Assembly (NCBI GenBank): GCA_002162755.1
Contig: MAAS01000005.1
Location: forward strand, 62,001-126,000
Direction: 5' to 3'
DNA: 64,000 bases
From: Gammaproteobacteria bacterium 50_400_T64
GTDB taxonomy: Bacteria > Pseudomonadota > Gammaproteobacteria > Pseudomonadales > Porticoccaceae
A program made the position numbers and the translations under genes. Of the stretch, positions 13,280 through 63,021 are shown piece after piece. Below the pieces are notes generated by a model. That model saw only the letters and a program-made list of their open reading frames with translations, was not told the DNA's origin and did not search any database. Each line of letters starts with the position of its first letter. The stretch's first letter is position 1.

Positions 13280-13282
13280 CGC

Positions 13283-13729: not shown

Positions 13730-13804
13730 AATAGTCTCCTCAATATTTAAACACATCCTTGTGTTCTCAATATCGACATTCTACCCCTGTCTAAGCAGAG
13801 CCAA

Positions 13805-14125: not shown

Positions 14126-14180
14126 TTTATTTCCTCACTAATATATTTAGGTCTTACGTTTGTACGCGTGTTAACAAATA

Positions 14181-38751: not shown

Positions 38752-38757
38752 GCAGCA

Positions 38758-38926: not shown

Positions 38927-38933
38927 TTTTTTT
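38920..38933 (+). terminator. T-run after 6S RNA
   Basis: CCGGGCC followed by a run of T (38926-38933) closes the 6S RNA. The transcript may still read through into the 5-FCL gene, as in the ssrS-ygfA pair of E. coli. Confidence 0.5.
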
Positions 38934-39610: not shown

Positions 39611-41125
39611 TTACTGACCAAGGAAAAATCGATAGGCATCGTTCTTCGTTTCTTCCTGATAGGGGTAATCGAGGGCACCGAGAAAAGCACCAACATCACG
39701 GCGCTCACCAGCGGGCACCTGCAGGCCAACTAATACCCGGCCGTAAGCTGAACCATGGTTACGGTAGTGAAACATGGAAATATTCCAGCGCCCCCCCAAC
39801 TTACCGAGAAAGTTTGACAATGCTCCCGGCCGCTCGGGGAATTCAAAGCGATACACCACTTCGTCAGCAATTTCTGGGGCGCGCCCGCCGACCATATAGC
39901 GAATATGCAGCTTGGCAATTTCATTATCGGTCATATCGACAACGGCATAATCTTTGGCGAGCAGGTCATCGACCAAAGCCTGGCGGTCCGCATCGGAGGT
40001 CACCTGAATGCCAACAAAAATGTGGGCATCTCCCGCATCGGCATAGCGGTAGTTAAATTCACTGACCATCCGCTGGCTCAGGGCCTGGCAAAAACGCTTA
40101 AAACTACCCGGCTTTTCGGGAATGGTCACCGCCAGCACGGCCTCGCGTTTTTCACCAATCTCAGTGCGTTCGGAAATATAGCGCAGGCGATCAAAGTTCA
40201 TATTGGCACCACTATCGATAGCCAATAAGGTTTCGCCACTACAGCCGCTTTGCTGCACATACTTTTTCAACCCGGCTAAACCCAGCGCGCCCGCAGGTTC
40301 GCAAATAGAACGAGTGTCATCAAAAATATCTTTAATGGCCGCGCAGATTTCATCGGTCGAGACGGTAATCACGCCATCAATCGTGTCGCGCAACACCCGA
40401 AATGTTTCCTTACCAATTTGTGCCACCGCTGTGCCATCGGCAAAAAGACCGACTTCTTTGAGGGTCACCCGTCGACCTTTTTCCATCGCCGCTGCCAAAC
40501 AGGCCGCGTCCTCAGATTCCACGGCAATCACTTTAATATCGGGCCGCACATATTTCACATAGGCAACGATGCCCGCACACAGCCCACCGCCACCCACTGG
40601 CACAAAAATAGCGTTCAGTGGGCCGGTGTGCTGGCGCAGAATTTCAACCGCAACCGTACCCTGCCCAGCAATCACATCGGGATCGTCAAAGGGATGAATG
40701 TAGACCAGGCCTTTTTCGGCAACCAGCTTCTGTGCATGCTCGGCCGCGCCTTCATAGGTATCGCCCTGCAAAACGACCTTTGCACCCCGGGCACGCACCG
40801 CGTCGACTTTAATTTGTGGCGTGGTGCGGGGCATAACGATGGTTGCTTTAACGCCCATTTTTTTTGCCGCCATCGCCAGGCCCTGGGCGTGATTGCCAGC
40901 GGAGGCCGCAATTACCCCCGCCGCACGCTCACTGTCACTAAGCTTACGCATTTTGTTGTAAGCACCGCGCAGCTTGAAAGAAAACACCGGCTGTAAATCT
41001 TCACGCTTTAACAGCACCCGGTTATCGAGACGTGCCGATATTATTGGCGCTTCATCAATCGGCGTTTCTACCGCCAGATCATAGATGCGTGCATCGAGGA
41101 TTCTTTTTACATAGCTTTTTGGCAT
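39611..41125 (-). CDS. ilvA: threonine ammonia-lyase, biosynthetic
   Basis: 504 residues from ATG 41125; the frame is open to 41296 but the extra 57 residues overlap the divergent rpiA leader and do not look like family sequence. It deaminates threonine to 2-oxobutanoate, the first step of isoleucine synthesis. The PLP lysine is K51 in [24 protein letters not shown] and the glycine loop [11 protein letters not shown] bind the cofactor. Two ACT-like domains (about 325-500, with [13 protein letters not shown] and [14 protein letters not shown]) give isoleucine feedback control. It is convergent with the 5-FCL gene and divergent from rpiA, as in pseudomonads. Confidence 0.96.
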
Positions 41126-41264
41126 GCTGAAACGGTCCGATATTTTTTTGAGAAGGGGGCACAGTCTTGTGCTCAGGCGCAATCGTAGTTTCTCAACAAC
41201 ACTAACACCAGCCTTGTTGAGAAAATCTCCATCATTGTATCGCCAACAACTTTCCCTGCTCAGA

Positions 41265-41270
41265 TATAAT
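41265..41270 (+). promoter_or_regulatory. candidate -10 box for rpiA
   Basis: TATAAT at 41265-41270, 24 bp before the rpiA ATG. No -35 box at proper spacing is clear. Confidence 0.4.
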
Positions 41271-41294
41271 GCCGCTCTATTGCCGGAGCCCATC

Positions 41295-41990
41295 ATGTCT
41301 AAAAACCAAGTATCACAAGATCAGCTCAAACAAGCCGCCGCCCAGGCCGCCCTCGACTATGTGCTAAAACACCTCGAGGACGATAGTTATCTCGGCATTG
41401 GTACTGGTTCAACGGCGAATTGCTTTATCGATTTACTGGCCCAGCACAAGGGCTATATCAAAGGTACTGTCGCCAGTTCCGAGGCCAGTGCTCAGCGCTT
41501 GCGTGATCACGGTATCAATGTGCTCGAACTTAATAATACCGGCGGCGTGCAAATTTATGTCGACGGTGCCGACGAAGTGAACCCGGCACTGGAGCTGATT
41601 AAAGGCGGGGGTGGCGCACTAACCCGCGAGAAAATTATTGCCGCAGCCGCCGACGACTTTGTCTGTATTGCCGACCAAAGTAAGTGGGTTGATCACCTCG
41701 GTGAATTTGCCGTGCCGGTAGAAGTGATTCCCATGGCACGCAGCTATGTGGCGCGGGAGATTTTCAAGTTGGGCGGTGAAGCGGTTTATCGCCAGGGTGT
41801 GGTCACCGACAATGGCAATGTAATACTCGATGTGCAGCGCCTGCACCCCATCGCCGCACCGAAGGCACTGGAAGAAAAACTCAACAATATTACCGGCGTG
41901 GTAACCAATGGTTTGTTTGCCCTGCGCCCGGCAGACCTCATGTTACTCAGCACGCCCGAGGGTGTAAAAACACTCAAGCCATCGCACTAG
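41295..41990 (+). CDS. rpiA: ribose-5-phosphate isomerase A
   Basis: 231 residues from ATG 41295; the longer open frame (from 41124) overlaps ilvA on the other strand and lacks family features. It interconverts ribose 5-phosphate and ribulose 5-phosphate in the pentose phosphate pathway. Key parts are [17 protein letters not shown] (phosphate loop), VDGADEVNP with the catalytic acidic residues, and [15 protein letters not shown]. The C-terminus matches the usual end ([16 protein letters not shown]). Divergent from ilvA. Confidence 0.97.
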
Positions 41991-48547: not shown

Positions 48548-49873
48548 TTAGCCCAGCACATCGCTAATCGATTGACGCAGACGCTCGATAAACAAATCGA
48601 TCTCCGCTTCGCTAATCGTCAGCGGCGGCGACATCACCATATTGTCGGCCACGGCACGACACAGCAGGCCATTTTCAAAGCACTTATTGTGGACAGGCAC
48701 GCCAACACCGGTGGGGTATTTTTCGGCATTCGGGGCGAAGGTAATAGCACCCAACAAACCGTAGTTGCGAATATCAATAATGTGGGGGATGTCGCGCAGG
48801 CTGTGCAAGGCGTCTTCCCAGTACTGACCGATGGGGCCGGAGGCACGGGTTAACAAACCCTCACGCTCATAAATTTCAAAGGCCGCAAGTCCTGCAGCCG
48901 CACCCACTGGCGCACCGGCGTAGGTGTTGCCATGAAAAATCTCCGGCATACCGCCCGGCGCGGCATCAAAAATAGTCTGCTGAATTTCTTCTTTAATAAA
49001 TACACCACCCATGGGTACGGTGCCGCCATTAATGGCTTTAGCGGTGGTCATCAGATCGGGAGTGACATCAAATTCAACGGCGGCAAAGGCCGAGCCGGTG
49101 CGACCATAACCCGTCACCACTTCGTCGAAAATCAGCAGAATGTCATTGTCATCACAAATCTGGCGGGCGCGCTCAAGATAGCCTTTGGGCGGTGGCACCA
49201 TGCCGCCAGCACCGACGATGGGTTCGATAATCAGAGCGCAGATGTTTTCCGCACCGCGCGTGGCGATGATTTTTTCCAATGCATCGAGCTTCTCAACGCC
49301 CTTTTCAGGCAGGCCACGGCTGAAAGCATTGTTGGGAATATCGAGCAGATCGGGTAGAAAATCGACATTTTCCAGCGTCGGGAAGCCCTTGCGGTTATTG
49401 GGAATGCCCTGCAGTGATGTACTGCCGACATTGACCCCGTGATAGCCCCGCTCGCGGGATATAAAGCGGGTTTTGCTCGCCTTGCCCCGGGCCAGTTGGT
49501 AGCGGTGGGCAATTTTCATCGCGGTCTCGACAGACTCAGAACCCGAGTTGGTAAAAAACACACGGTTCAACGCATCAGGGGCATGCTCGACTAACTTCTC
49601 GGCAAAGCGAAACGTTACCGGTGAACCGAACTGGAAAGGTGGGCAAAAGTCCATATCCATCAATTGCTTATGCACTGCATCCGCCACTTCTTTACGGCTG
49701 TGGCCGAGGTTGGCACACCACAGGCCGGCGGTGATATCGAGGACATCGCGGCCATCGGCGGTGTAGAGAAAACAGCCTTCGGCGCGCTCTATCAAACGGG
49801 GGTTGGCCCGAAAGCCCCTAACGTTGGTAAACGGCTGCCACCAGTTTTCCAGGTTCATATCGAGATCTGTCAT
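48548..49873 (-). CDS. aspartate aminotransferase family protein (omega-amino acid:pyruvate type)
   Basis: 441 residues from ATG 49873, with GGAAG upstream; the frame is open to 49897. A class III PLP aminotransferase: LDITAGLWCANLGHSRKEVA, FFTNSGSESVETAMKIAHRY, LIFDEVVTGYGRTG and the PLP lysine in MTTAKAINGGTVPMG. This set fits omega-amino acid/beta-alanine:pyruvate aminotransferases, which move an amino group from a primary amine or beta-alanine to pyruvate. The substrate could be any omega-amine. It precedes frmA by 15 bp, which hints at a shared aldehyde or C1 detoxification context, but this is inference. Confidence 0.9.
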   Translation of the reverse strand: MTDLDMNLENWWQPFTNVRGFRANPRLIERAEGCFLYTADGRDVLDITAGLWCANLGHSRKEVADAVHKQLMDMDFCPPFQFGSPVTFRFAEKLVEHAPDALNRVFFTNSGSESVETAMKIAHRYQLARGKASKTRFISRERGYHGVNVGSTSLQGIPNNRKGFPTLENVDFLPDLLDIPNNAFSRGLPEKGVEKLDALEKIIATRGAENICALIIEPIVGAGGMVPPPKGYLERARQICDDNDILLIFDEVVTGYGRTGSAFAAVEFDVTPDLMTTAKAINGGTVPMGGVFIKEEIQQTIFDAAPGGMPEIFHGNTYAGAPVGAAAGLAAFEIYEREGLLTRASGPIGQYWEDALHSLRDIPHIIDIRNYGLLGAITFAPNAEKYPTGVGVPVHNKCFENGLLCRAVADNMVMSPPLTISEAEIDLFIERLRQSISDVLG

Positions 49874-50081
49874 ATTTTCTTCCTGTACATCATCCAATTC
49901 CTTACTTTACAGTCACACAGCAACAAAATCTCATGCCTATACGCTGCAAGCAGGCCGAAAAATGTCATTCTACCGAATACGTCACATTATTGATCTTGCT
50001 ATTTATCATCAACTGCCGATACCATGCAAATAACACGAATAAAGCCCTTTAACATGCTGATATTAATTGAGATTATTAGCC

Positions 50082-51890
50082 ATGACTGTTTGTAAAGAGA
50101 CACAACAAAATCAAGCAGAAGGAGCTGCCACTCCCGAGTACGGAGACCTGCTTCTCGGCTATCTTGAGCAACTTGGCATTGAGTATGTTTTTGGTATTCC
50201 AGGGGGGGCGATAGAGCCCCTATATAACGCACTTGCCCGCAGTGAACGCCGCGGTGGGCCCCGCGCAATCACCGCCCGACACGAAACCGGCTCTGCCTTT
50301 ATGGCCGATGGTTACTGGCGCAACTCTGGCAAACTCGGCGTATGCTGCTCAACCACGGGGCCCGGCGCAACCAACTTGCTCACGGGGGTCGCATCAGCCT
50401 ACGAAAACAACATCCCCATGCTGGTTATTACTGCCCAAACAGCACTTGCTAGCTTCGGCAGCGGCACTCTTCAGGAATCATCGTGTACAGGTGTCAATAC
50501 GGTTGGACTGTTTAATCACTGCTGCCGTTACAGCACGCTGGTCTCCCACCCTGAGCAGTTCGAGCGCAAACTGATTAAAGCTATTATGACCGCCTTCGCT
50601 GAACCTATGGGGCCAGTACACCTGAGTATCCCCATTGACCTAATGCGCACTACATCAGCCAGCGCCACGCCTTCTGTCGATCTCCCCAATCTACTGCGCA
50701 AGCCGGGTCTGTTTGACAGTGACGCAGTCGGCCGCCTTTACAGTGAGCTGAAACAAGCCAAAAAACCGCTATTTGTTATTGGCGATGACGCCAGCGAGGC
50801 CATTGGTTTAATCCTCAGTCTCGCCGTCGGTCTCAACGCCCAGCTTGTTGTAACCCCTCATGGCAAAGGACTTATAAGCCCCTATCACCCACTTTTCAGA
50901 GGTGTTATCGGGTTTTCCGGGCACCAAAGTGCCCAGTCATTACTCACCGATCCCTCTATCGACAGCGTCTTTATTATTGGCGCTCAACTCAATGAGTGGG
51001 CAAGCCAGGGCTGGGAGCCACAAAATCACAAACAGCGCATCATCGACATTGAAGCCAGTGAGTCAAACTTGACCAAATTGCCAATGGCCGCGCTACATGT
51101 CAGGGGACGCCTTGAAACTATTTTTGAGTCTCTTCTCAAGCGCTTTGATAAAAACGGCTTTAATCAGCCCTTAAAGCTCATCACAACTAACGGAATAGCC
51201 GTCGACACCACGGCAGAAAAACTTGAAAAGCTAAAGCAGTTCACTCTGGATGATGAAGATAAATATCGCTCTGATGCTATTCCCATCAAACCCCAGCGCC
51301 TGATGCGCGAGCTCCCCAATGTTTTCCCCCCCAACACGCACTATTTAGCCGATGCCGGGGCCAGCTTTTCGTGGGCAACACACTATTTACACCCCCATGA
51401 TCGCCGGATCCGTGGTCGTAGAGACGCAAAAGGTGGACTGTTTCGCGCCTCACTCAATTTTGCCTCCATGGGCTGGGCAATTGGCAGCGCAATTGGCACA
51501 GCCCTCGCCCGTCCTGACAAACCCGTAGTTTGTATTACTGGCGATGGCAGTTTGCTAATGAGCGGGCAGGAGATTACCGTCGCCATTGAAGAGCAGCTAC
51601 CCGTCGTCTTTGTGATACTCAACGACAGTGCTTATGGCATGGTCAAGCACGGCCAGCGAATGACGGGGGGTGAAGCCATCGCGGCTAACCTGCCACCAAT
51701 CAACTTCGCCGCATTCGCCGAATCCATGGACGTAGAAGGCCACATTATTTATTCTGCCGACGATTTACTAAACCTTGATTGTTATGCTTTTTTCAACAAG
51801 CAAGGCCCTACACTTCTTGATGTGCGCATTGATAAGGAAGAGGCTGCGCCCTTCGGCATGAGAATCAAAACACTGACAAATGATCTATGA
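50082..51890 (+). CDS. ThDP-dependent enzyme, acetolactate-synthase-like
   Basis: 602 residues from ATG 50082; a TTG at 50067 is in frame, with no strong ribosome site for either. It has the three domains of the acetolactate synthase family. The N-terminal PYR domain carries FGIPGGAIEPLYNAL and the activating E68 in ARHETGSAFMADGYWR. The C-terminal PP domain binds ThDP through GDGSLLMSGQE (GDG at 487-489) and NDSAYGMVK. It could decarboxylate a 2-oxo acid and transfer the acyl group, or cleave a 2-hydroxyacyl-CoA; the real reaction is unknown. Its stop overlaps the next gene (ATGA). First gene of a six-gene operon. Confidence 0.88.
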   Translation: MTVCKETQQNQAEGAATPEYGDLLLGYLEQLGIEYVFGIPGGAIEPLYNALARSERRGGPRAITARHETGSAFMADGYWRNSGKLGVCCSTTGPGATNLLTGVASAYENNIPMLVITAQTALASFGSGTLQESSCTGVNTVGLFNHCCRYSTLVSHPEQFERKLIKAIMTAFAEPMGPVHLSIPIDLMRTTSASATPSVDLPNLLRKPGLFDSDAVGRLYSELKQAKKPLFVIGDDASEAIGLILSLAVGLNAQLVVTPHGKGLISPYHPLFRGVIGFSGHQSAQSLLTDPSIDSVFIIGAQLNEWASQGWEPQNHKQRIIDIEASESNLTKLPMAALHVRGRLETIFESLLKRFDKNGFNQPLKLITTNGIAVDTTAEKLEKLKQFTLDDEDKYRSDAIPIKPQRLMRELPNVFPPNTHYLADAGASFSWATHYLHPHDRRIRGRRDAKGGLFRASLNFASMGWAIGSAIGTALARPDKPVVCITGDGSLLMSGQEITVAIEEQLPVVFVILNDSAYGMVKHGQRMTGGEAIAANLPPINFAAFAESMDVEGHIIYSADDLLNLDCYAFFNKQGPTLLDVRIDKEEAAPFGMRIKTLTNDL

Positions 51891-52711
51891 GTAGCCAGGA
51901 CAAAAAAGACCGCGAGCAAATCACCACTAAAATTTGGCGAGAAGAAGCGGAACCGGACAACCCCTTCGCCGCCACGGCAAGCTATTGTGCAGGCTATGAT
52001 GTTTACGGAGACCTGCTCGGCAAAGTCAGTTTTATTGAGTACCTCTGGCTTCTCTTCAAACTGGACCCGCCCAGTAAAGCACAGGTGCGTACACTCGAGG
52101 GGCTTGCCGTCGCCCTCGCCAACCCTGGCCCCCGCGACACGTCCGTGCGTGGCGCAATGAATGCGGGCGTTGGCGGCTCGACTCATGCCGCCGCATTGAT
52201 TGCCTCCATCTCTATCGGTGCCGGCAACCTTGGCGGGGCCCGCGAAGTCTTTACGGCTATGCAATATTGGCAACAATGCGGTACAGATATCGATAGCTGG
52301 ATCAATATTATTAAGAACCCGCCCCTCTATGACACCGGCGATGTCTGGCCAGAAATGGAACACACGCCGGGCTTTGATCCTAATGGCGCTAGCTGCCCAA
52401 AACCGGTACGACAGCTACTGAACCACCTCGCCAATATTGAACACAACGACGAGCTTATTTGGCTACAATCCAATCGCCTGCTACTAGAACAGCAGGCGCA
52501 ATCGCCACTGTCCTTTTCAGGTATTGCTGCAGCGACTTTTTTCACCCTTGACTTTAAGCCTGAAGAGGCTGAAATGCTCTTTCTACTGCTGCGGCTACCC
52601 GGTGCAGCGGCTCACGCTCTCGAGCAGGAAAGAATGGGATGGAATCGCTATCCATTCTTTGGTGCTGGCCTTACTCTAACGGATGATCCCGGCCCGTCGA
52701 CAAAGAAGTAA
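51887..52711 (+). CDS. citrate-synthase-fold protein A (citryl-CoA lyase-like)
   Basis: 274 residues, overlapping the ThDP gene by 4 bp. The segment AGYDVYGDLLGKVSFIEYLW then LLFKLDPPSKAQ and VALANPGPRDTSVRGAM resembles citrate synthase and citryl-CoA lyase proteins of about 260-280 residues. SIGAGNLGGAREVF aligns with the GPLHGGAN motif of citrate synthase, but the His is replaced by L115 before G116-G117. H159 in EMEHTPGFDPNG stands where the second catalytic His is expected. No Asp is evident in the PLSFSGIAAATFF segment that corresponds to the catalytic Asp motif. Activity on acyl-CoA/2-oxo acid is uncertain. It is paired with the next gene and could form a hetero-oligomer. Confidence 0.75.
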   Translation: MSSQDKKDREQITTKIWREEAEPDNPFAATASYCAGYDVYGDLLGKVSFIEYLWLLFKLDPPSKAQVRTLEGLAVALANPGPRDTSVRGAMNAGVGGSTHAAALIASISIGAGNLGGAREVFTAMQYWQQCGTDIDSWINIIKNPPLYDTGDVWPEMEHTPGFDPNGASCPKPVRQLLNHLANIEHNDELIWLQSNRLLLEQQAQSPLSFSGIAAATFFTLDFKPEEAEMLFLLLRLPGAAAHALEQERMGWNRYPFFGAGLTLTDDPGPSTKK

Positions 52712-52721
52712 GTAATAAGCA

Positions 52722-53549
52722 ATGAATACACAAAACAACACATCATTAACAGGCCCAGAACTGCTAAGCCATTATGAAGATAATTGGCAGACAGCGATGG
52801 GCGCCTGGTTTCCTGCAGAACGCGTGGTACTGCGGGGGAAAGATCTCTTTACAGAGCTGAATGATTATAGCTGGATGGAATATATCCTTTTTGCGGTCAC
52901 TGGCAAACACAACCCCAGGCTGGCAAAGATCATCGAAGGCTTATCCCTGCTAACGACTAGCTATCCTGACCCGAGGCTGTGGAACAATCGAATAGCGGCC
53001 CTTGCGGGAACGACTCGGTCGACGGGAGCCCTCGCCGTATCCGCAGGCGTCGCCGCATCTGAAGCCACGATTTACGGACTAAAGCCCATTAAAGGAGCGC
53101 TTAATTTCCTCTATCAAGCGGCGGAAAAGAAGAAACAAGGTATTTCTATTGAAGCAATTGTTAAAGAAGAACTCAAAGCCAAACGCTGCATCAGTGGTTA
53201 TGGTCGCCCCTTAACGGATGAAGATGAACGCATAGCCCCTGGGTTGCGCTTCCTGGCAAAAATGGACGCTGACAAGGGAGAATATTTAAAACTCGCCTTT
53301 GAAATAGAAGACTATCTAAAAGGTACGCGCTATAAATTCAAAATGAATATTGCGGCGTTTAATGCCGCAACCGCTGCAGATGCCGGCATGACAGCCGATG
53401 AGTACTACCACACGAGCACGATTGCATTTATTGGAGGAATACTCCCCAGCCACTTAAGTACACTCAGTAAACCCGAAGGTACTTTTTACCCCCTGAGTGT
53501 TGATCGTATTAACTCAACATCCGTAACCAAACGCAGTTGGGTTAATTAA
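52722..53549 (+). CDS. citrate-synthase-fold protein B, strongly diverged
   Basis: 275 residues, 10 bp after protein A. It has the same overall outline as A: ELNDYSWMEYILFAVTGKH, PDPRLWNNRIAALAGTTRST, SEATIYGLKPIKGALNFLYQ and GYGRPLTDEDERIAPGL. The GPLHGGAN-equivalent is GLKPIKGA (119-126) with no His, and the second His position is Y160 in SGYGRPL. The Asp-motif segment reads KMNIAAFNAA, also without Asp. So B lacks all three classical catalytic residues and may be a structural or substrate-binding partner of A. The last base of its TAA is the first of the next ATG. Confidence 0.7.
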   Translation: MNTQNNTSLTGPELLSHYEDNWQTAMGAWFPAERVVLRGKDLFTELNDYSWMEYILFAVTGKHNPRLAKIIEGLSLLTTSYPDPRLWNNRIAALAGTTRSTGALAVSAGVAASEATIYGLKPIKGALNFLYQAAEKKKQGISIEAIVKEELKAKRCISGYGRPLTDEDERIAPGLRFLAKMDADKGEYLKLAFEIEDYLKGTRYKFKMNIAAFNAATAADAGMTADEYYHTSTIAFIGGILPSHLSTLSKPEGTFYPLSVDRINSTSVTKRSWVN

Positions 53550-55657
53550 TGATGTTTTTTAAACGCTACTTACCACTTGTCATCACAATATTTCTGCTGC
53601 CGGCCCTCACGGCAATAGCGCAAGATGAAGATGAGCTGGCCAGTTTTTTTGGCGACGAAGAATTTATTAGTATTGCAACGGGAACATCCCAGCCCATCTC
53701 GAAAGCCCCTGCTGTCGCATCCGTTATTACAGCAAAGAATATTCTTCAAATAGGGGCAACAGATATCGATGAAATTTTAGAAACCGTCCCGGGTTTACAT
53801 GTTTCAAGAAATGCAGGCTACACCCCTATTTACAGCTTTAGAGGTATTCATACCACCACCAATCCACAAGTACTTATGCTGATTAATGGCATCCCTCTGA
53901 CCAACCTTTTCTACGGCGATCGAAATTTAGCCTGGGGCGGGATGCCTGTTGAGGCGATATCTCGTATTGAAATTATTCGAGGCCCAGGGTCCGCAGTTTA
54001 TGGTGCGGATGCCTTTGCGGGTGTTATTAACATAATTACCCGGACGCCAGCAGAAGTTTCTGGCACCTCTGGCGGCATTCGCTACGGCACATCGAACAGC
54101 AAGAATTTTTGGCTACAAACCGGCGGAGAGGCTAACGGGCTCGGTTATATGGCAATAATTGAAGGCCGTAAAACCGATGGTAGTAGTGAAAGAATCGGCA
54201 ACGATGCCCAATCAATATTGGATGCTCTCACCGGTACCAACGCATCTCTGGCACCCGGAAGCATCAACCGGGAAGGCAAGAGTATCGATACCAGGCTAGA
54301 ACTCACTTATGGGAAATTCACTTTTCATGCCGGTAGCCAAATAAGAAAACAGCTTGGCCTTGGTACCGGTGTTGCTCAAGCTCTAGACCCAAAAGGGCAA
54401 GCCGCCAGCGAACGTTATAATGCTGACCTTAGCTACGATAATATCAACTTCACTCAGAATATCGGTATTAAGGCGACTGTTAGCTATCTTCAGACCAGCC
54501 AGGAGGTCGATGAAAACTTAATCCTATTACCGCCAGGCACGACAGTCTCCCCATCAAATTCATTCCCCTACCCCAGCGGACTCATAGGCAACCCTGAAGT
54601 TTACGAACGCCATTACCGCACAAACCTGAATGCAACCTATCGCGGTATTGCCCGTCATGAGTTCATGGGTGGCATTGGTTATTATTTTGGTGACATCTAT
54701 AAAACCAGGGAAGAAAAGAACTTCGGTCTTAACCCTGCCACAGGCCTTCCCATTTTACCCGGCAGCCCTCTCGTCGATGTTTCTGATACCCCCCTTGTTT
54801 TCCTTGATGAAAACGAACGTGAAAATAGCCATGTATTTATACAGGATGTGTGGCATTTAGCCGATGATTGGGAGCTAACAACTGGCATACGCTTTGATCA
54901 CTATTCAGATTTCGGTGACACCACGAACCCTCGCATCGCACTCGTCTGGTCAGCACGACACAACCTAACCGTAAAAGCATTATACGGTGAAGCATTTAGG
55001 GCACCGTCGTTTGGAGAAGCAGGCGAACAAACTAACCCGCTATTTCTTGGTAATCCTGACCTGGAACCGGAAACACTAAAAAGTTACGAATTGGCTTTTA
55101 ACTATAAACCCACCTACGACTTAAGTGTTGACCTCAACCTCTTCCAGTATTACTGGAAAGATATTATTCAGTTTGTCCCCAATGCCAACCAAACTCGTAC
55201 TGCACAGAATACTGGAGAACAGGAAGGCCATGGCATTGAGCTCGAAGCATCGTGGCAGGTGAATGACCATCTATCCGTGCTGAGTAATTACTCATGGCAA
55301 AAATCAGAAGATGAACTTAATAACGCCGACACTGCAAATGCACCAGAACAGCAGTTCTATATACGCACCAACATCGCCTTAGCGAATGAATGGGACATTA
55401 GTCTTCAGGCCAATCGCGTAATGGATAGGAATCGAGTATTTAACGACAACAGAAAAGATATCAAGGATTATACGACTATCGACTTCACGCTTCGCAAGTC
55501 ATTTACTGATAAGTTAGAACTAGGACTGATTGGCAAAAATATTTTTAATGATGATGCCCGAGAGCCTAGCATCAACGGACAACCCCTACCTGCTATTAGC
55601 AATGACCTCCCCCTAGAACGTCGTCGTATTTATGGCGATATTCGCTATAAATTTTAA
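53549..55657 (+). CDS. TonB-dependent receptor in a sensory operon
   Basis: 702 residues. The signal peptide ends TAIAQDEDE, and the start of the mature part is acidic (DEDELASFFGDEEFISIATG), a form seen in CirA/BtuB-like receptors without a typical TonB box. The plug has VASVITAKNILQIGATDIDE, ILETVPGLHVSRNAGY, RGIHTTTNPQVLMLINGI and IEIIRGPGSAVYGADAFAG then VINIITR. The barrel ends GDIRYKF. It overlaps protein B by one base and is followed by a PF04392-like binding protein (23 bp) and a hybrid kinase. The order receptor, periplasmic binding protein, sensor kinase suggests a signalling or sensing system for the ligand rather than uptake alone. Confidence 0.88.
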   Translation: MMFFKRYLPLVITIFLLPALTAIAQDEDELASFFGDEEFISIATGTSQPISKAPAVASVITAKNILQIGATDIDEILETVPGLHVSRNAGYTPIYSFRGIHTTTNPQVLMLINGIPLTNLFYGDRNLAWGGMPVEAISRIEIIRGPGSAVYGADAFAGVINIITRTPAEVSGTSGGIRYGTSNSKNFWLQTGGEANGLGYMAIIEGRKTDGSSERIGNDAQSILDALTGTNASLAPGSINREGKSIDTRLELTYGKFTFHAGSQIRKQLGLGTGVAQALDPKGQAASERYNADLSYDNINFTQNIGIKATVSYLQTSQEVDENLILLPPGTTVSPSNSFPYPSGLIGNPEVYERHYRTNLNATYRGIARHEFMGGIGYYFGDIYKTREEKNFGLNPATGLPILPGSPLVDVSDTPLVFLDENERENSHVFIQDVWHLADDWELTTGIRFDHYSDFGDTTNPRIALVWSARHNLTVKALYGEAFRAPSFGEAGEQTNPLFLGNPDLEPETLKSYELAFNYKPTYDLSVDLNLFQYYWKDIIQFVPNANQTRTAQNTGEQEGHGIELEASWQVNDHLSVLSNYSWQKSEDELNNADTANAPEQQFYIRTNIALANEWDISLQANRVMDRNRVFNDNRKDIKDYTTIDFTLRKSFTDKLELGLIGKNIFNDDAREPSINGQPLPAISNDLPLERRRIYGDIRYKF

Positions 55658-55680
55658 AAAATAATCTAAATATTTCGCTA

Positions 55681-56631
55681 ATGATTTTACGTTTTATAAA
55701 AAAAGACAACTCATTCACTTCCCAATGGATGCGCTCATCATTGCTCGCCCTGATTTTACTCGGGCAGATATTCCTGCCCTGCAATGCTTTATCGTCAGGC
55801 CTACTTGTTGTCTACCCCTCGGTAAAGGCGCCTTACAACAAAATATACCAAGCTATTATTAAAGGGATACGCGAAAGCTACCCCGGCACAACTCAAAAAA
55901 TTGAACTTACAGCCAATGATAAAAATGAGGTACTGAGTAAAGGCGTTGAAAAATATCAGCCCGATATATTGATAACCCTCGGAAAGGAATCACTTAATAC
56001 AGTAAGCCAATTAAAGCTACCTGTTCCCATCGTTGCGGGGGCCATAACAAAAACAGAGCAGCCTGTTTCAGGTATTTCAATGACCCCTGACCCCGAAGTT
56101 CTTTTATCGAACTTATTAACAATGGCACCCTTTGTCGATAATATTTATGTTGTTGCTGACATTAACCGACGCGATCAGCTAGAACGCGCTGAAATCTACT
56201 TAAAAAAACAAGGAAAAACACTGCACAGTGAAGAGGCGGAATCTCTACAACAAGCTGCAGAAAAATACCTTAAAATAATAAACAAGGCCACAAGTAACGA
56301 TGCTATTTGGCTCATGCGCGGCGCCAACCTCAATGAGCCTAGTATATTGATGCTAATTCTAGAAGCCGCCTGGAAGAAAAAAATAGCCGTTTTTTCATCC
56401 AACCCTAGTCATGTCAAACGCGGGGCGCTATTCTCTGTTTATCCTGACAACGAGAAAATGGGCGTAGCTCTAGCCGAAATTGCACAGCAACACGAGAAGA
56501 CGACTAACGCACAAAATATGGGTTTAGTGCCTCTTAGAAATGTACATCTTATTATCAATAAACGCACCAGCAAGCACCTGGGCATCATACCCAACAGTAT
56601 CCGTGGACTAAATATCCACCGGATGTTATAG
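55681..56631 (+). CDS. periplasmic substrate-binding protein, PF04392-like (ABC_sub_bind)
   Basis: 316 residues. A signal sequence covers about 16-40 (WMRSSLLALILLGQIFLPCN); a Cys in it (LPCNALSS) is possible as a lipobox but weak. The mature part has a periplasmic-binding fold with LLVVYPSVKAPYNKIYQAII, DILITLGKESLNTVSQLKLP, PIVAGAITKTEQPVSGISMT and PSILMLILEAAWKKKIAVFS, resembling the PF04392 family. No ABC permease or ATPase is nearby, so a role as ligand-presenting co-sensor for the kinase 12 bp downstream is more likely than transport. The ribosome site is poor, hinting at translational coupling. Confidence 0.8.
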   Translation: MILRFIKKDNSFTSQWMRSSLLALILLGQIFLPCNALSSGLLVVYPSVKAPYNKIYQAIIKGIRESYPGTTQKIELTANDKNEVLSKGVEKYQPDILITLGKESLNTVSQLKLPVPIVAGAITKTEQPVSGISMTPDPEVLLSNLLTMAPFVDNIYVVADINRRDQLERAEIYLKKQGKTLHSEEAESLQQAAEKYLKIINKATSNDAIWLMRGANLNEPSILMLILEAAWKKKIAVFSSNPSHVKRGALFSVYPDNEKMGVALAEIAQQHEKTTNAQNMGLVPLRNVHLIINKRTSKHLGIIPNSIRGLNIHRML

Positions 56632-56643
56632 GGGTTTTGACTA

Positions 56644-59600
56644 ATGTTTAGGCAAACAGGAAAGAAACTACTAAACCTTCAATTCAGTCAACAGCTGATC
56701 ATTATTTTCATCATTGCTGTCATCCTGATGTCAACACTCGTCTCCTTTGCCGTAGGCCGTAAGACTAACGACATCCTTAAAAAACAAATGCATGCCCAGG
56801 GCATTCAAATAACCCAAACATTTGCCTCTCAAAGTAAACTCGCTCTACTTTACCAAAGTGAATACGCCGCACAAAGCGCTGTAAAGTCGATCGCAGGCTT
56901 CCCCGATATTGAAGTTTTACAACTAAAAGCTATAGACGGGACCGTCTTATACCATGCTCGTAACATTGACATCACGACGACCAAAACCGTCGTCAGCAAA
57001 GACTCAGCTATTCATGTTTTTGAAGATGAAGGTGAATGGATTTTTTCTGCTCCTGTTTTTTCCGAAGCTGGTTTTGATGAGGAATTAACAGATATTTATC
57101 AGGAAACTGAAGAAGAAAATACCTTGCTAGGCCACGTTACACTTTCAATGAGCAAAGCCCCTCTTCTATTAATGCAACGGAAAACCTATCAGACCAGCTT
57201 TATTGTAGCCTTTGCAATTGCAATTTTAATCATTTTAACTCTTTATCGAATATCAAGACGAATCACTAAACCTGTAGAACAACTTGCCCTGGTAATGGGC
57301 CAGGCTGAACAGGGTAACACTGCCATCCGAGCCACTATTGGAGGCCAGCCTGATGTTGCTAAAATGCAACATGCCTTCAATACAATGATGGATGGCATCG
57401 AAAATAGAGAAGAAGAACTTAAAACAGCACATGATAAAGCCCTCGAAACTGCGAGAGTTAAGGGCGAATTCGTGGCGAATGTTACCCATGAATTACGCAC
57501 ACCACTTAATGCTGTTCTCGGCATGATGGATTTATTGAATGAAACTCGGCTCAATGCTCGGCAGGCCGAATATATCGATATTGCAAAAAACTCAGGAGAG
57601 AATTTACTCGACTTAATTGAAGATATCCTTGATTTCTCAAAAATGGAAACGGGGAATATGGATATTCATTTACAAGAAACGAATATTCGTGATCTTGCCG
57701 AGGAGGTTATCCAGCTTCTTTCCACCCAGGCCCTGAGTAAAAAATTAAACTTCGGCTATGATATAGAAGATAATTCAACATCATACCTTGTACACATTGA
57801 TGCTGCCAAAACACGGCAAGTCCTTATTAATTTGTTAGGCAATGCTATAAAGTTCACTGATACCGGTGAAGTCTTTTTACGTATCCGATATAAACGTGGC
57901 CCCCTTCCTCAAATTGAATTTGAAATACGTGATACAGGGATCGGCATTAAAGAAGAAAGTCAATTGAGTATTTTTGACGCATTCACACAGGCCGACTCTT
58001 CAACTACCAAAGCTTATACCGGCACCGGCCTTGGACTAACAATTTGCAAACAAATCATCGAGCTGATGGGTGGCGAAATAGCACTCAACAGCGTACCAAC
58101 GAAAGGATCGACATTCACATTCACCATACCGATTGAACGCCTAACCACGGAACCCGGCAGCCACATCGGGCTATCGCTTGATGAGCAAAGACATGCATTA
58201 TTGATCACCTCTAGCGTGATCGTTAGGCTATTCACCACCTCCGCCATACAAACCAATGATTTTCTCTGTATCACCACAGGGAGTTTACGTGCCGCCCAAT
58301 TGGAAATATCTCGTCTTGAAAAGGCTGAGATTGATTTTGAGTTTATTATAATTGACGAAGAACTTTATTATCTCAATGAACAAGAGTTCCTACCCTTATT
58401 ATCGCGACTGATCTCTAAACACAATGTAACAGTTGCTATTCTTGTCAATCCATTTAGATCACTCAAGCTCGAATCGCATCGTTTTTTAACCATTGAAAAA
58501 CCTTTGTTGCGATCTTCTTTTGACCAACTTTTTAATATTAAAGCTAGTGCACTCACCAGCAATCCCGGACAACAGGTGATACGAGCAAAAACCCAAGCTA
58601 CTGCCAACCATGCTGATGAAAACGTACTCATTGTGGACGACAACAGGGTGAACCAACAAGTTGCCCGAGAAATGCTGAACAAACTTGGTTATCGATCAGA
58701 CATAGCGATTAATGGCCAAGATGCAGTTACAAAAGTACAAAGGCATAGTTACAGTCTAATTCTAATGGATTGCAATATGCCTGTGATGGATGGTTTTGAG
58801 GCAACTCAGGAAATTCGCAAATTAGAAACGAATACACATATACCCATCATTGCCATGAGTGCAAACACCTCCACTGAAGATAAGAATAAATACCTTGTTT
58901 CAGGAATGGATGGATCAATCGGAAAACCCCTAAGGCTTAACAAACTCCGCGACGAACTCATACACTGGATATCTAATCCGCACGTAGAAATTTTAGAAAA
59001 TAACGTTAGTAACGTCGAATCTACGCAGCAAGAAGAAACCGAAGTATTAGCTTACAACCCAAAAATAATGGAAGACCTCTTCGAAGGCATCGGCGATGTC
59101 GTCATAAAAATGCTTGAAGCCTTTCTTGAAGACTCACCTATATATATCGACTCACTTAAACAGGCACTGCAGCGAGGCAGCTCAAAAAATGTACGAGAAC
59201 TTGCCCACACATTAAAAGGTAGCGCAAGTAACTTTGGAGCAAACAACTTTCTTGAAACAGCAAAAATTATTGAACACCTTGCTAAAAACCAACAACTACA
59301 CCAGTGCGATATTTACATTGAAGCATTAGTTGATGACTTTCAAATTTTAAAACGCGATATTGAAAACAATATTCTCAATCCTCTATCAAATGCAGAGGAT
59401 ATTAACCAACAGAAGCACAAACTTCTTATTGTCGATGACGATCGCACAATACGCCTTGCCTTAAAAAACATGTTTACCGATAAAAAATTTCTTATTTTTG
59501 AAGCAAGAAATGGCCAACAGGCAATAAGCTTTTGTAAACAGGACACACCCGATCTCATACTGATGGATGCCATCATGCCTGAAATTGATGGCTTCGAAGC

Positions 59601-61161
59601 ATGCAAAACCATCCGTACTCTTCCCAATTTTAATGAAACACCCATCTTGATGATCACCTCCCTTGAAGATGACGAGGCCATTAACAAAGCATTTACTTCT
59701 GGCGCTACTGACTACATTACCAAGCCCCTAAACTTCACAGTCCTCAAAGAAAGAGTTTCTCGGCTGTTACAGGCTAACCGTGTTGAAAAACGCGTTAAAG
59801 AACTTGCTTACCATGACTCCCTTACAGGCCTGCCCAATCGTAGTAAATTAATGCAGGACCTGCGCTTAATTCTTAATCGCGCAAAGCTTGATAATTCAAG
59901 CTTTGCTGTACTATTCATGGATCTGGATCACTTTAAAAACATTAATGATTCTCTTGGGCATAATATTGGCGACTTACTACTTAAGGCGGTTGCCGACCGA
60001 TTACAAAGTGCCGTTCGTGAAAGCGACTTTGTAGCCCGCCTTGGTGGTGACGAATTCACTATTGTTCTTGAAAATATTGACGGCCCTGAAGCGATCAGTA
60101 CCATCGCACAAAATATTTGCAGTTCAATCAGCAGCCCTTTCGTCTTTATCCAGCAAAAAATGTTCGTTACCGCTAGTCTGGGGATTTCTGTGTACCCAGA
60201 CGATGGCGACGATGTTAACGCCTTACTCAAACATGCTGACCTCGCGATGTTTAGTGCAAAAAAGAGTAGGAATAATTACAGCTTTTACCAACAGGGGATG
60301 GAGGATAAGGTTGCACGACGCTTAGAGCTTGAACATCAGTTACGTTATGCAATTAAGCACGATCAATTAGTTCTTCACTATCAGCCACAACTCGAACTCA
60401 AATCAAACAGAATTATCGCTGCCGAAACACTCATCCGCTGGGAACACCCTACGCACGGCTTCCTAAGCCCAGCTGAGTTTATACCCCTTGCTGAAGAAAC
60501 GGGGTTAATCAAAGATTTAACCTTTTGGGTAATTAGCCAAACATTTGCACAAATAAGCGAATGGCAGAAACAAAAATTTGACGTCAAACTCTCTATTAAT
60601 CTATCTGCAAAAGACCTTGAGACCCCTGGCGCACTATCTGACTTTCTAAAACATCAACTGGAGAAAACAGGGGTCTCCCCAGCCCTTGTCGAACTTGAGC
60701 TCACTGAAAGTATGCTCATGGACGATCCCGAAAAAAGCAAGAAGGAATTACTTGCTCTAAAAGACATGGGCTTTGTTTTAGCTATTGATGATTTTGGCAC
60801 TGGTTATTCATCGCTTAACTATTTGAAAAACCTTCCCGTCGATATATTAAAAATTGACCGTTCTTTTATTAAAGAGATTGAAATCAATTCCGATGACAAG
60901 CCCATCGTTAAAGGTATTATTGCTCTAGCCGATAGTTTAAGTCTCACCACTATTGCAGAAGGGGTGGAAAACGAACAACAGATGGCCATCGTAAAAGAAC
61001 TTGGCTGTAATACTGTACAGGGCTATCTAATTAGCCGCCCCTTGCCAAGGGAAGAGTTCGAGCGAATCTACCTGAGTGAATTCAAAGTCAGAGGGGAATC
61101 TCACCGTAAGAAACAACGTGACAAACCTAAGGAAGGCAGTTCAGATAATTCACGCCGCTAG
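56644..61161 (+). CDS. hybrid sensor kinase / phosphorelay protein with GGDEF and EAL domains
   Basis: 1505 residues. In order: TM helix about 16-37; periplasmic sensor about 38-180; TM helix about 182-202; HAMP about 203-255; HisKA with H282 (NVTHELRTPLN); HATPase with DTGIGIKEES and GTGLGLTICKQII; first receiver with D709 (LILMDCNMPVMDG); Hpt with H855 (AHTLKGSASNFG); second receiver with D975 (LILMDAIMPEIDG); GGDEF at 1134-1138 (LGGDEFTIVL), with DLDHFKNIND upstream; EAL domain with E1261 (ETLIRW), INLSA, LELTES and DDFGTGYSS. The catalytic residues of both c-di-GMP domains look intact. It should turn a periplasmic signal into phosphorelay and c-di-GMP changes. It lies 12 bp after the binding protein. 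Confidence 0.92.
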   Translation: MFRQTGKKLLNLQFSQQLIIIFIIAVILMSTLVSFAVGRKTNDILKKQMHAQGIQITQTFASQSKLALLYQSEYAAQSAVKSIAGFPDIEVLQLKAIDGTVLYHARNIDITTTKTVVSKDSAIHVFEDEGEWIFSAPVFSEAGFDEELTDIYQETEEENTLLGHVTLSMSKAPLLLMQRKTYQTSFIVAFAIAILIILTLYRISRRITKPVEQLALVMGQAEQGNTAIRATIGGQPDVAKMQHAFNTMMDGIENREEELKTAHDKALETARVKGEFVANVTHELRTPLNAVLGMMDLLNETRLNARQAEYIDIAKNSGENLLDLIEDILDFSKMETGNMDIHLQETNIRDLAEEVIQLLSTQALSKKLNFGYDIEDNSTSYLVHIDAAKTRQVLINLLGNAIKFTDTGEVFLRIRYKRGPLPQIEFEIRDTGIGIKEESQLSIFDAFTQADSSTTKAYTGTGLGLTICKQIIELMGGEIALNSVPTKGSTFTFTIPIERLTTEPGSHIGLSLDEQRHALLITSSVIVRLFTTSAIQTNDFLCITTGSLRAAQLEISRLEKAEIDFEFIIIDEELYYLNEQEFLPLLSRLISKHNVTVAILVNPFRSLKLESHRFLTIEKPLLRSSFDQLFNIKASALTSNPGQQVIRAKTQATANHADENVLIVDDNRVNQQVAREMLNKLGYRSDIAINGQDAVTKVQRHSYSLILMDCNMPVMDGFEATQEIRKLETNTHIPIIAMSANTSTEDKNKYLVSGMDGSIGKPLRLNKLRDELIHWISNPHVEILENNVSNVESTQQEETEVLAYNPKIMEDLFEGIGDVVIKMLEAFLEDSPIYIDSLKQALQRGSSKNVRELAHTLKGSASNFGANNFLETAKIIEHLAKNQQLHQCDIYIEALVDDFQILKRDIENNILNPLSNAEDINQQKHKLLIVDDDRTIRLALKNMFTDKKFLIFEARNGQQAISFCKQDTPDLILMDAIMPEIDGFEACKTIRTLPNFNETPILMITSLEDDEAINKAFTSGATDYITKPLNFTVLKERVSRLLQANRVEKRVKELAYHDSLTGLPNRSKLMQDLRLILNRAKLDNSSFAVLFMDLDHFKNINDSLGHNIGDLLLKAVADRLQSAVRESDFVARLGGDEFTIVLENIDGPEAISTIAQNICSSISSPFVFIQQKMFVTASLGISVYPDDGDDVNALLKHADLAMFSAKKSRNNYSFYQQGMEDKVARRLELEHQLRYAIKHDQLVLHYQPQLELKSNRIIAAETLIRWEHPTHGFLSPAEFIPLAEETGLIKDLTFWVISQTFAQISEWQKQKFDVKLSINLSAKDLETPGALSDFLKHQLEKTGVSPALVELELTESMLMDDPEKSKKELLALKDMGFVLAIDDFGTGYSSLNYLKNLPVDILKIDRSFIKEIEINSDDKPIVKGIIALADSLSLTTIAEGVENEQQMAIVKELGCNTVQGYLISRPLPREEFERIYLSEFKVRGESHRKKQRDKPKEGSSDNSRR

Positions 61162-61218: not shown

Positions 61219-63021
61219 TTAAAACCACTCATCTTGCATTTCAAAGGTCACGCTATTGCCGGCCTGTAATAACTCGGCATACTGCTCTACCGCCGGCAAT
61301 TCCCATTCAATATAATAATTAGCAGCCTGTAATTTTCCCTGGTAAAAATGCTCGTCACTTTCATGCAGTTTTGATTGCAATGCCTCTTCCGCAATCAAGC
61401 CCTGCTTCAACCAAATCCAGGCACCAACAATTCGACCGAACATATCAAGATAAACCGTTGCGTTTGCCAGGCCACGATCGATATCTTCTGCCATTTGCTG
61501 CTGCAGTGATTCCGTCGTTTTATCCAGTAATACCACGGCATTTTCGAGCTGTACTGCCAAGCTTTTAACTGACTCTAAAGTTTTAGCACGAGTAATGTCT
61601 TGCGCGATATCTTCTTTAAAAAACTGGTAGCCAGCGCCATCGTATAAATTCAGCTTGCGGCCCAATAAATCGAGACCATGAACGGCCTCCGCCCCTTCGT
61701 GAATAGGGTTAAGGCGTTGATCTCGGTAGAGTTGCTCTACTGGGTATTCACGCGTGTACCCAGCCCCGCCCAATATCTGAATCGCCATATCATTCGATAT
61801 ACAACCGTATTTTGATGGCCATGACTTAATGATAGGTGTTAATAAATCCAGGAGTTGTGCATTGCGTGTTCGCAACTCTTCCGTTGGTGCGCTGTTCTGG
61901 TTTTCAAACAAACTACTACCAAACATGCACATTGCCATAGAGCCTTCAGAATAGGCTTTTTGCGCGAGTAACAAACGGCGTACGTCGGCATGCTCTACTA
62001 ACATGACCTGTGGTGACGATTGATCTTTACACGACGCCAAGCGTCCCTGAGGCCGTTGCCGGGCATAATCTAATGAATGATTAAAACCCTGGTAGGCAAT
62101 CGCAGCAGCACCCAAGGCAACACCAATACGCGCCTCATTCATCATTTGAAACATATAGCCGAGGCCTTTATTCGCCTCACCAACGAGATAGCCAATAGCG
62201 CCATCTTTTTCACCAAAGTTCAATGCAGCATTAGTCGTGTTCCGATAACCCATTTTATGGTTGAGTCCGGCAACGACAACATCATTGCGCTCACCGGGTG
62301 TACCATCATCATTGACTAAAAACTTCGGCACAATAAAAAGGGAAATACCTTTGACCCCCGGAGGGGCACCTTTGATTTTTGCCAGCACCATGTGAATCAC
62401 ATTACCGGCGATGTCATGATCGGCACAGGAAATAAACATTTTCTGGCCAAAGATGCGGTAGGTGCCGTCATCTGCCTGCTCGGCCATGGTAGTGATATCG
62501 CCGAGTGCTGAGCCCTGACCCGGCTCTGTAAGGCACATCGTGCCATTACTTCGGCCGTCCATAATCAAGGTTAGAAACTTAGCTTTTTGTTCATCCGACC
62601 CGAAGGCTCGTATTAAATTTGCAGAACCTGTTGCAACAAATGGATACGCCGCCGTACCGATATTAGCGGCATTGACATAGGCCATCACCATACGAAAGAC
62701 AACTTCGGGCATTTGCATGCCACCTTCATCGTAATCCTGATGAGCCGCTAAAAAACCGGCATTAGCAAATTCATCCCATGCTACTTTCGTTTCGGGAATC
62801 ATTTTAACGACGCCATCTACTAGTGTCGGCTCGTTTGCATCACCTTCTACCAGGTGATTGGCGAAGTATTTTTCGGCAATTGTTTTTGCGGTTCGTAGTG
62901 AGGCGTCAAAAATTTCTCGGGAGTGTTCGCTATAGCGAGGGCGCTCTAAAAGTTTTTCCGTATCAAGAAATTCATAAAGCAAAAACTCGACATCACGGTC
63001 ATTTAATAGTGGAACTGACAT
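61219..63021 (-). CDS. acyl-CoA dehydrogenase (FadE-like, about 600 residues)
   Basis: 600 residues. The N-terminal extension (NDRDVEFLLYEFLDTEKLLE) and C-terminal part after 430 match the long acyl-CoA dehydrogenases with extra terminal domains. The FAD/substrate core has MCLTEPGQGSALGDITTMAE, KMFISCADHDIAGNVIHMVL and GYTREYPVEQLYRDQRLNPI. A Glu that may be the catalytic base lies in HEGAEAVHGLDLLGRKL. It oxidises acyl-CoA to the 2-enoyl-CoA in beta-oxidation. The operon continues from an AMP-binding acyl-CoA ligase 78 bp upstream on the same strand. This fits growth on fatty acids or alkanes with the P450 at 15-17 kb. Confidence 0.93.
   Translation of the reverse strand: MSVPLLNDRDVEFLLYEFLDTEKLLERPRYSEHSREIFDASLRTAKTIAEKYFANHLVEGDANEPTLVDGVVKMIPETKVAWDEFANAGFLAAHQDYDEGGMQMPEVVFRMVMAYVNAANIGTAAYPFVATGSANLIRAFGSDEQKAKFLTLIMDGRSNGTMCLTEPGQGSALGDITTMAEQADDGTYRIFGQKMFISCADHDIAGNVIHMVLAKIKGAPPGVKGISLFIVPKFLVNDDGTPGERNDVVVAGLNHKMGYRNTTNAALNFGEKDGAIGYLVGEANKGLGYMFQMMNEARIGVALGAAAIAYQGFNHSLDYARQRPQGRLASCKDQSSPQVMLVEHADVRRLLLAQKAYSEGSMAMCMFGSSLFENQNSAPTEELRTRNAQLLDLLTPIIKSWPSKYGCISNDMAIQILGGAGYTREYPVEQLYRDQRLNPIHEGAEAVHGLDLLGRKLNLYDGAGYQFFKEDIAQDITRAKTLESVKSLAVQLENAVVLLDKTTESLQQQMAEDIDRGLANATVYLDMFGRIVGAWIWLKQGLIAEEALQSKLHESDEHFYQGKLQAANYYIEWELPAVEQYAELLQAGNSVTFEMQDEWF

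Follow-up and report, generated by a model that had tools for sequence, protein, structure and literature searches.

A six-gene cassette recurring in Gammaproteobacteria that may make, recapture and sense a small molecule

Organization of the cassette

We have analysed a 64,000-nucleotide stretch of the genome of Gammaproteobacteria bacterium 50_400_T64, a member of the Porticoccaceae (GenBank assembly GCA_002162755.1, contig MAAS01000005.1, forward-strand positions 62,001 to 126,000), referred to below as the window. Six open reading frames (ORFs), all on the plus strand, span positions 50082-61161 of the window and encode a thiamine diphosphate (ThDP) enzyme, two proteins with a predicted citryl-CoA lyase fold (CSa and CSb; CS, citrate synthase), a TonB-dependent receptor (TBDR), a periplasmic binding protein (SBP) and a hybrid kinase. 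They are arranged as follows.

49898..50081, no strand assigned: intergenic stretch ahead of the ThDP gene, bounded on its other side by a divergent aminotransferase gene; putative promoter site
50082..51890 (alternative start TTG 50067), plus strand: ThDP enzyme; TPP_enzyme_N/M/C domains; nearest solved relatives BbmA and CsmA
51887..52711, plus strand: CSa, citryl-CoA-lyase-fold protein; Protein Data Bank (PDB) entry 6HXP is the top match by profile and by fold
52722..53549, plus strand: CSb, a further protein of the citryl-CoA-lyase fold; homologous to CSa, catalytic triad absent
53549..55657, plus strand: TBDR; Pfam Plug and beta-barrel domains; distinct subfamily by sequence
55681..56631, plus strand: SBP, periplasmic binding protein of family PF04392; above the Pfam cut-off
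56644..61161, plus strand: hybrid kinase; sCache_4-like, HAMP, HisKA, HATPase, REC, Hpt, REC, GGDEF and EAL domains (Pfam)

A first-pass annotation, made from the DNA letters, had listed six plus-strand genes with junctions of -4, +10, -1, +23 and +12 bp, and the ORF coordinates reproduce these values exactly. Its reading of the domain content (a TPP enzyme, a TonB receptor, a PF04392 protein and an HK-REC-Hpt-REC-GGDEF-EAL kinase) is confirmed by Pfam, which adds the sCache_4-like sensor and the HAMP domain. A single transcript for the six genes is plausible, and the cassette promoter is likely to be located in 49898..50081. Two promoter-like matches (9 of 12 positions) occur there on the plus strand, at a frequency no higher than chance. 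Promoter-like matches numbered 21 against 18.6 expected from shuffles (standard deviation 5.0), a count that is uninformative on internal promoters, and the promoter and terminator scans both gave results at the level of shuffled sequence. As for control of the cassette by Fur, no site in the 64 kb window matches a Fur-box consensus when three mismatches or fewer are allowed. Other regulators are possible.

Conservation in relatives

The first-pass annotation had proposed a co-occurrence check, and had reasoned that the grouping would be fortuitous if the ThDP and CS genes lay apart from those for the receptor, SBP and kinase in relatives and a promoter were found before 53549. The two groups are mostly not apart. 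Our sets of relatives and of named genomes were picked by similarity, and even samples of the class and of the order were therefore added. A locus was counted as full-flank if the fetched stretch extended 6.5 kb or more to each side of CSa, and a family as present if it occurred anywhere within that stretch, which was at most 20 kb long.

The class sample comprised 369 genomes, 42 of which match CSa at E 1e-20, including the window's own genome and one weak match. The 40 other genomes carry a high-scoring CSa, and 30 of these loci are full-flank. All six families stand together in 17 of the 30; taken singly, CSb is present in 28, the ThDP enzyme in 26, the TBDR in 26, the SBP in 22, the sensor kinase in 22 and GGDEF/EAL in 20. 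The order sample comprised 341 genomes with 76 matches, from which the best 47 besides the window's own were examined and 28 weaker ones (E above 1e-14) were left out. A strong CSa was found in 43 of the 47, and 27 of these loci are full-flank. Here all six families are together in 19 of 27, with the ThDP enzyme in 27, CSb in 26, the TBDR in 25, GGDEF/EAL in 22, the SBP in 21 and the sensor kinase in 21.

Amongst relatives, CSb was found in 28 of 58 whole genomes (the window's own counted). The exact order ThDP-CSa-CSb-TBDR-SBP-kinase is kept in 19 of 27 fetched loci, the remaining eight being cut by a contig end, without one or more of the genes in the stretch, or rearranged. The scan of named genomes yielded 500 candidate stretches; a CSa relative is encoded in 391 of them (tblastn, E 1e-3), and the best 80 of these were retained. 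Within these best 80, all six families are present at 39 of 50 full-flank loci. Their record titles mostly name gammaproteobacterial groups and include Porticoccaceae, SAR92 clade, Cycloclasticus, Methylococcaceae, Thiogranum, Hahella, Marinobacter and, in three cases, Collimonas. One Planctomycetota record carries ThDP-CSa-CSb without the rest of the cassette, and a contig of 3.7 kb, assigned to Flavobacteriales by its label, is possibly misbinned. Clustering of the neighbouring genes at the 80 loci returned chiefly lineage-specific housekeeping genes, together with clusters of short-chain dehydrogenases (SDRs), methyltransferases and YfiR-like proteins.

Genome-wide co-occurrence was counted over the 368 class genomes besides the window's own, as raw counts from genomes that share descent. 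CSa and the ThDP enzyme occur together in 38 genomes, CSa alone in two, the ThDP enzyme alone in nine and neither in 319; for CSa and the TBDR subfamily the figures are 37 with both, three with CSa only, 19 with the TBDR only and 309 with neither. Three genomes (G435, G564 and G669) possess the ThDP gene at a distance from CSa. Some ThDP genes without CSa occur in other surroundings (L233-L239). We also observed that at two loci (L237 of genome G567 and L243 of G669) the ThDP gene lies apart from CS genes and beside translations resembling a 2-oxoglutarate dehydrogenase cluster.

Gene order was surveyed at 142 loci (L056-L208; 153 before removal of repeated contigs), which gave 45 arrangement strings, those cut by contig ends included. 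The window's order with a fused kinase was seen at 43 loci and the same order with a kinase devoid of GGDEF/EAL at ten. At eight loci the order is ThDP-TBDR-CSa-CSb, with SBP-kinase and GGDEF-EAL genes on the opposite strand at either side, and at four the GGDEF-EAL gene comes first with SBP-kinase on the opposite strand. The set thus stays together through changes of gene order and strand. Loci with a short kinase often have a separate GGDEF-EAL gene near it, with none in the stretch at five loci (L136, L137, L138, L140 and L148). The sensor kinase directly follows the SBP in 88 of 91 cases with repeats removed (96 of 99 with repeats). Some loci without SBP and sensor kinase carry a YfiR-like protein (PF13689) instead (the cluster of L135, L163 and L164).

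Unrelated metabolic and sensory units could in principle abut by chance, since short gaps between plus-strand genes can arise in this way; a promoter-like match (9 of 12) is also present at 52746, though such matches are equally common in shuffles. We judge this explanation to be extremely improbable and reject it on the linkage seen in the class and order samples and on the genome-wide co-occurrence. The same families recur together under many arrangements in both samples, and the SBP, the sole match of its kind within its genome at E 0.001, is still located here.

The ThDP enzyme

A phmmer search of the PDB with the ThDP protein gave BbmA (281.8 bits), CsmA (236.3 bits) and then acetolactate synthase isozyme 1 (6LPI; 199.5 bits). 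A profile search returned the same order with 436.7, 368.3 and 305.8 bits, respectively. The motifs RHE and GDG-(24)-ND are both present. The NCBIfam models point the other way: two acetolactate-synthase models score 285 and 272 bits, above the 240 and 221 bits of the models for ScyA, a relative of the CybE, CsmA and BbmA synthases. All of these scores are far below cut-off. Because of this ranking, the assignment of the protein as a scaffold-forming synthase of alpha-hydroxy-beta-keto acids (acyloins), similar to BbmA and CsmA, is only a lead. In PMC12395478, CsmA and a second enzyme are described as homologues of CybE, which in cyanobacterin biosynthesis joins two 2-oxo acids to an acyloin; a furanolide synthase then condenses the acyloin with an acyl-CoA.

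CSa and CSb

Neither CSa nor CSb of the window matches a Pfam family at E 0.001. In relatives, PF00285 is matched by seven of 18 aligned CSa sequences and three of 16 CSb sequences. NCBIfam gives citryl-CoA lyase for both, far below cut-off (E 4.8e-13 for CSa and 5.7e-11 for CSb), and in profile searches of the PDB the citryl-CoA lyase entry 6HXP is the top match of CSa (E 4.3e-19) and of CSb (E 1.8e-15). It is also the closest fold to the AlphaFold model of CSa (mean predicted confidence, pLDDT, 86.6; TM-score 0.65) and to that of CSb, which is only fair (pLDDT 73.5; TM-score 0.58). The first-pass proposal of two citrate-synthase-fold proteins is thereby borne out. The two proteins are homologous to one another (hhalign probability 98.8).

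The catalytic residues of this fold are His/His/Asp, of which the Asp is named in PDB titles (mutant D1026A). At these positions CSa of the window has Leu115, Pro165 and Ser211. Across the 18 CSa sequences the first His position holds Leu in 14 and His in one (L052), the second is Pro or Thr, and the third is never Asp. In the 16 CSb sequences there is no His at the first position, the second is deleted in the alignment and the third is again never Asp. We therefore reject the notion that either protein is an ordinary citrate synthase or citryl-CoA lyase: the fold is present and the catalytic triad is not. Given this loss, the aligned sequences suggest either that the pair has acquired a new active site or that it carries out no citrate synthase chemistry. 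Seven CSb residues (Arg85, Trp87, Asn89, Arg162, Asp168, Arg170 and Asn209) are invariant across the 16 sequences. A search of plasmids with CSa found no cassette, only five weak matches to citryl-CoA lyases, with 26-28% identity over 77-79% of the CSa length.

Accessory genes and the direction of the chemistry

Within the span of a cassette (genes joined by gaps of at most 4.5 kb) there are 71 accessory ORFs in 41 loci, and 29 of these ORFs were scanned with Pfam. The largest cluster consists of SDRs, at ten loci (eight checked with Pfam; two ORFs are partial). An O-methyltransferase (PF00891) occurs at three loci, a sulfotransferase at two and a carbamoyltransferase at one (L119). An Asn-synthase-like protein is encoded at L172 and also adjoins the ThDP gene at L242, in the same genus. 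L139 encodes, between the sensor kinase and the receptor, a protein (4723-6225, minus strand) that combines DUF6851 with a vanadium-haloperoxidase-like domain (VCPO_2nd) and could represent a halogenation step. The scanned ORFs also include regulators, a periplasmic binding protein, a nucleotidyl transferase and several without a family.

Two stretches without CS genes, each from a genome with no CSa match, carry the remaining components around a different enzyme. In L213 an S-adenosylmethionine-dependent methyltransferase stands between the ThDP gene and the TBDR (11505-14293), and in L227 this place is taken by a ketoacyl synthase III (KAS III; 4691-7865); in both an SBP and a kinase are also present.

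These observations favour a cassette that builds a molecule rather than degrades one, mainly because the accessory genes, and the KAS III and methyltransferase genes, encode typical tailoring and condensing enzymes of biosynthetic clusters. The converse would be a catabolic module, in which the TBDR, SBP and kinase would sense a compound from the surroundings and bring it in, and the ThDP enzyme and the CS pair would then cleave it as lyases. ThDP enzymes and citryl-CoA-lyase folds do include lyases, TonB receptors often import nutrients, and an eleventh member of the SDR cluster, near the cassette at L164 (4031-6022), is a catabolic-looking fusion of a class II aldolase and an SDR. Nevertheless, we regard a catabolic role as unlikely. 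The methyl-, sulfo- and carbamoyltransferases, the Asn-synthase-like protein and the KAS III all build molecules, whether they occur within a cassette or substitute for the CS pair; the Pfam scan, which covered 29 of the 71 accessory ORFs, showed no CoA ligase, hydratase or thiolase; no inner-membrane importer is encoded by the six genes; and the lyase triad is missing from CSa and CSb.

The receptor, binding protein and hybrid kinase

In its own genome the best other match to the TBDR scores 57.6 bits, compared with 1606.5 bits for itself, and by this sequence comparison the receptor is a distinct subfamily; its co-occurrence with CSa ties it to the cassette. Amongst receptors of solved structure, its sequence comes closest to the colicin I receptor, BtuB and ferric enterobactin receptors. 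Pairs of adjacent subfamily receptors are present at four loci (L141, L162, L165 and L131), one of which (L165) also has two ThDP genes; elsewhere, a cytochrome P450 gene abuts a subfamily receptor (L229, 7643-11061).

The SBP passes the PF04392 gathering score (47.1 against 25.9 bits). We considered and rejected an ABC import system: no permease or ATPase was detected with Pfam in the six genes or in the three flanking genes scanned. The kinase retains the motifs HELRTPL and HTLKG, two REC aspartates, a RESD I-site, GGDEF, ETLIRW, DDFG and AEGVE. Since the kinase, Hpt, receiver, GGDEF (with its RxxD site) and EAL motifs are present, the protein could both synthesize and degrade cyclic di-GMP (c-di-GMP).

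Amongst twenty stretches carrying the receptor without CSa, L213 and L227 retain the further parts given above; in others the receptor lies by a kinase or a YfiR-like protein only, or alone. Genome G576 encodes subfamily receptors and a complete hybrid kinase; neither the ThDP enzyme nor CSa has a match there at the thresholds applied, and the genome is possibly a receiver-only 'listener'. At its locus L222 (8978-16656) a receptor adjoins a 1839-residue hybrid kinase with about 300 extra residues ahead of the HAMP domain, perhaps a fused sensor domain.

The resemblance of the TBDR to the solved receptors named above raises the prospect of a metallophore cassette, in which the ThDP/CS product would chelate a metal, the TBDR would retrieve the complex and the SBP and kinase would report its arrival. 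The tailoring genes suit a chelator as well as they do a signal. Nonetheless, neither an inner-membrane transporter nor a reductase is present among the six genes, the window has no match to the Fur-box consensus within three mismatches and the output built into the cassette is c-di-GMP. We think it improbable that metal acquisition is the function.

A model for the function of the cassette

We propose instead that the six genes work as a single functional unit for the production, recapture and sensing of a small molecule in the manner of an autoinducer, with c-di-GMP as output, and consider the chances of this to be about even. The ThDP enzyme would couple two 2-oxo acids to an acyloin (an alpha-hydroxy-beta-keto acid). 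A CSa-CSb heteromer would elaborate the acyloin, with an acyl-CoA as the probable partner, in a step comparable to that of the furanolide synthase after CybE in the cyanobacterin pathway. The finished molecule would leave the cell, and the dedicated TBDR would import it, or the version made by a related cell, into the periplasm. There the PF04392 protein would bind it and dock on the periplasmic domain of the kinase, from which a phosphorelay would shift the balance of GGDEF and EAL activities and hence the level of c-di-GMP. We infer the chemistry of the product, the heteromer, the export, the direction of the change in c-di-GMP and the identity of the molecule made with the molecule sensed.

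In support of this model, the synthase candidates and a dedicated sensor are co-inherited, as in an autoinducer circuit, to judge from linkage and co-occurrence and with the exceptions given above. Also in its favour are the retention of the set in rearranged loci, the placing of the ThDP protein nearest to BbmA and CsmA, the constant succession of SBP and sensor kinase, and the gene content of G576, which is that expected of a listener. In 80 complete, non-repeated cassettes the distances of the TBDR track those of CSb (r = 0.85) and CSa (r = 0.82) most closely, and those of the SBP track the kinase sensor (r = 0.78); these correlations, also run on 88 cassettes with repeats included, share descent and are not independent evidence. 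The first-pass annotation had suggested that a molecule made or consumed by the ThDP/CS module is also sensed. This fits, and the tailoring genes at other loci tilt the choice towards 'made'; the plain label 'metabolic' is weak, since CSa and CSb lack the catalytic residues of citrate synthase and the nearest solved ThDP enzymes are acyloin synthases of natural-product pathways.

Several observations weigh against the model, in addition to the NCBIfam ranking of the ThDP protein and the catabolic-looking fusion at L164. With the known catalytic residues absent from both CS-fold proteins, the proposed chemistry is a guess, and the cassette has no known product. The window's own copy has no tailoring gene, and an exporter gene is absent from the six. 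Small diffusible signals do not usually rely on a TonB receptor, whose typical ligands are metal complexes, cobalamin or large nutrients. In the class sample the SBP and sensor kinase are missing from the stretch at eight of 30 loci, GGDEF/EAL at ten and the receptor at four, and CSa is absent from 19 of 56 other receptor-bearing genomes.

A wider reading, which we advance tentatively and think somewhat doubtful, is that the cassette represents a new class of chemical signalling spread through many Gammaproteobacteria. Its signal would be an acyloin-derived, possibly furanone- or butenolide-like molecule made by the ThDP enzyme and a re-purposed CS-fold heteromer and tailored by lineage; a matching TonB receptor would take it up, the pair of binding protein and hybrid kinase would convert it to c-di-GMP, and genomes with the receiving half only would listen. 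If this is correct, a single cassette would cover the making of one molecule, its capture at the outer membrane, its binding in the periplasm and its readout as c-di-GMP, control of c-di-GMP would be tied to a private chemical language, CS-fold proteins without the catalytic triad would have a new job, and many gene clusters would be on offer for product discovery. The cassette also opens a route to the question of what GGDEF-EAL hybrid kinases sense.

Flanking genes and other features of the window

The cassette is flanked by genes for an AptA-type omega-aminotransferase (48548-49897, minus strand) and an acyl-CoA dehydrogenase (61219-63021, minus strand). Relatives of both border the cassette within its own genus and in some further genera, and are absent from that position in many others. 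Elsewhere in the window a 6S RNA (RF00013, 83.6 bits; 38754-38930, plus strand) is the sole Rfam match at the gathering score, and a threonine dehydratase with two regulatory domains is encoded at 39611-41296 (minus strand). At 3154-11821 a PepSY_TM protein, a TonB receptor, a pyridoxal phosphate (PLP)-dependent decarboxylase and a second TonB receptor are clustered, perhaps as a separate siderophore or iron-uptake island.

Comparison with known systems

The first-pass annotation knew of no described system with the full set, and our searches of open-licence papers, judged mostly by title and the start of the abstract, likewise found no description of the six genes as a set or unit. Individual components do have known counterparts. 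LuxP-LuxQ and NspS-MbaA likewise pair a periplasmic binding protein with a membrane sensor, MbaA being a GGDEF-EAL protein; they use another family of binding protein and are not known to have a synthase or TonB receptor in the same operon. PF13689 proteins of the YfiR type occur near the cassette (L135 and L164) or near the receptor at loci without CSa (L214, L216 and L228). YfiBNR, in which a periplasmic regulator of this type accompanies a GGDEF protein, is not known to include a synthase module, and instead of a YfiR-type protein the window has a PF04392 protein. With citryl-CoA lyase and the ATP-citrate lyase core (6HXP and 6HXN) CSa and CSb have the fold and the best profile match in common; here, in contrast, two unlike subunits are encoded in tandem and both have lost the catalytic His/His/Asp.

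On the biosynthetic side, the likeness to CybE, CsmA and BbmA lies in the ThDP enzyme, whose nearest solved relatives by single-sequence and profile search are amongst them, and in an acyloin step that in cyanobacterin biosynthesis is followed by an enzyme condensing the product with an acyl-CoA (PMC12395478). In the cyanobacterin pathway that next enzyme is the furanolide synthase CybF, whereas here there is a CS-fold pair. Neither 'TonB' nor 'citrate synthase' appears as a term in the main text of PMC12395478.

The closest working analogy is provided by LqsA/LqsS of Legionella and CqsA/CqsS of Vibrio, in which an alpha-hydroxyketone made by the cell is read by a sensor kinase (PMC3376566). 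The synthase candidates of the present cassette are a ThDP enzyme and two CS-fold proteins, with no PLP-dependent synthase. CqsA and LqsA are PLP enzymes, and their signalling is not known to involve a TonB receptor, a PF04392 protein or a built-in GGDEF/EAL output. Set beside these systems, the cassette appears to be kin to chemical signalling or to metallophore-like systems that make and retrieve a molecule, and there is a real chance that it constitutes a new class.

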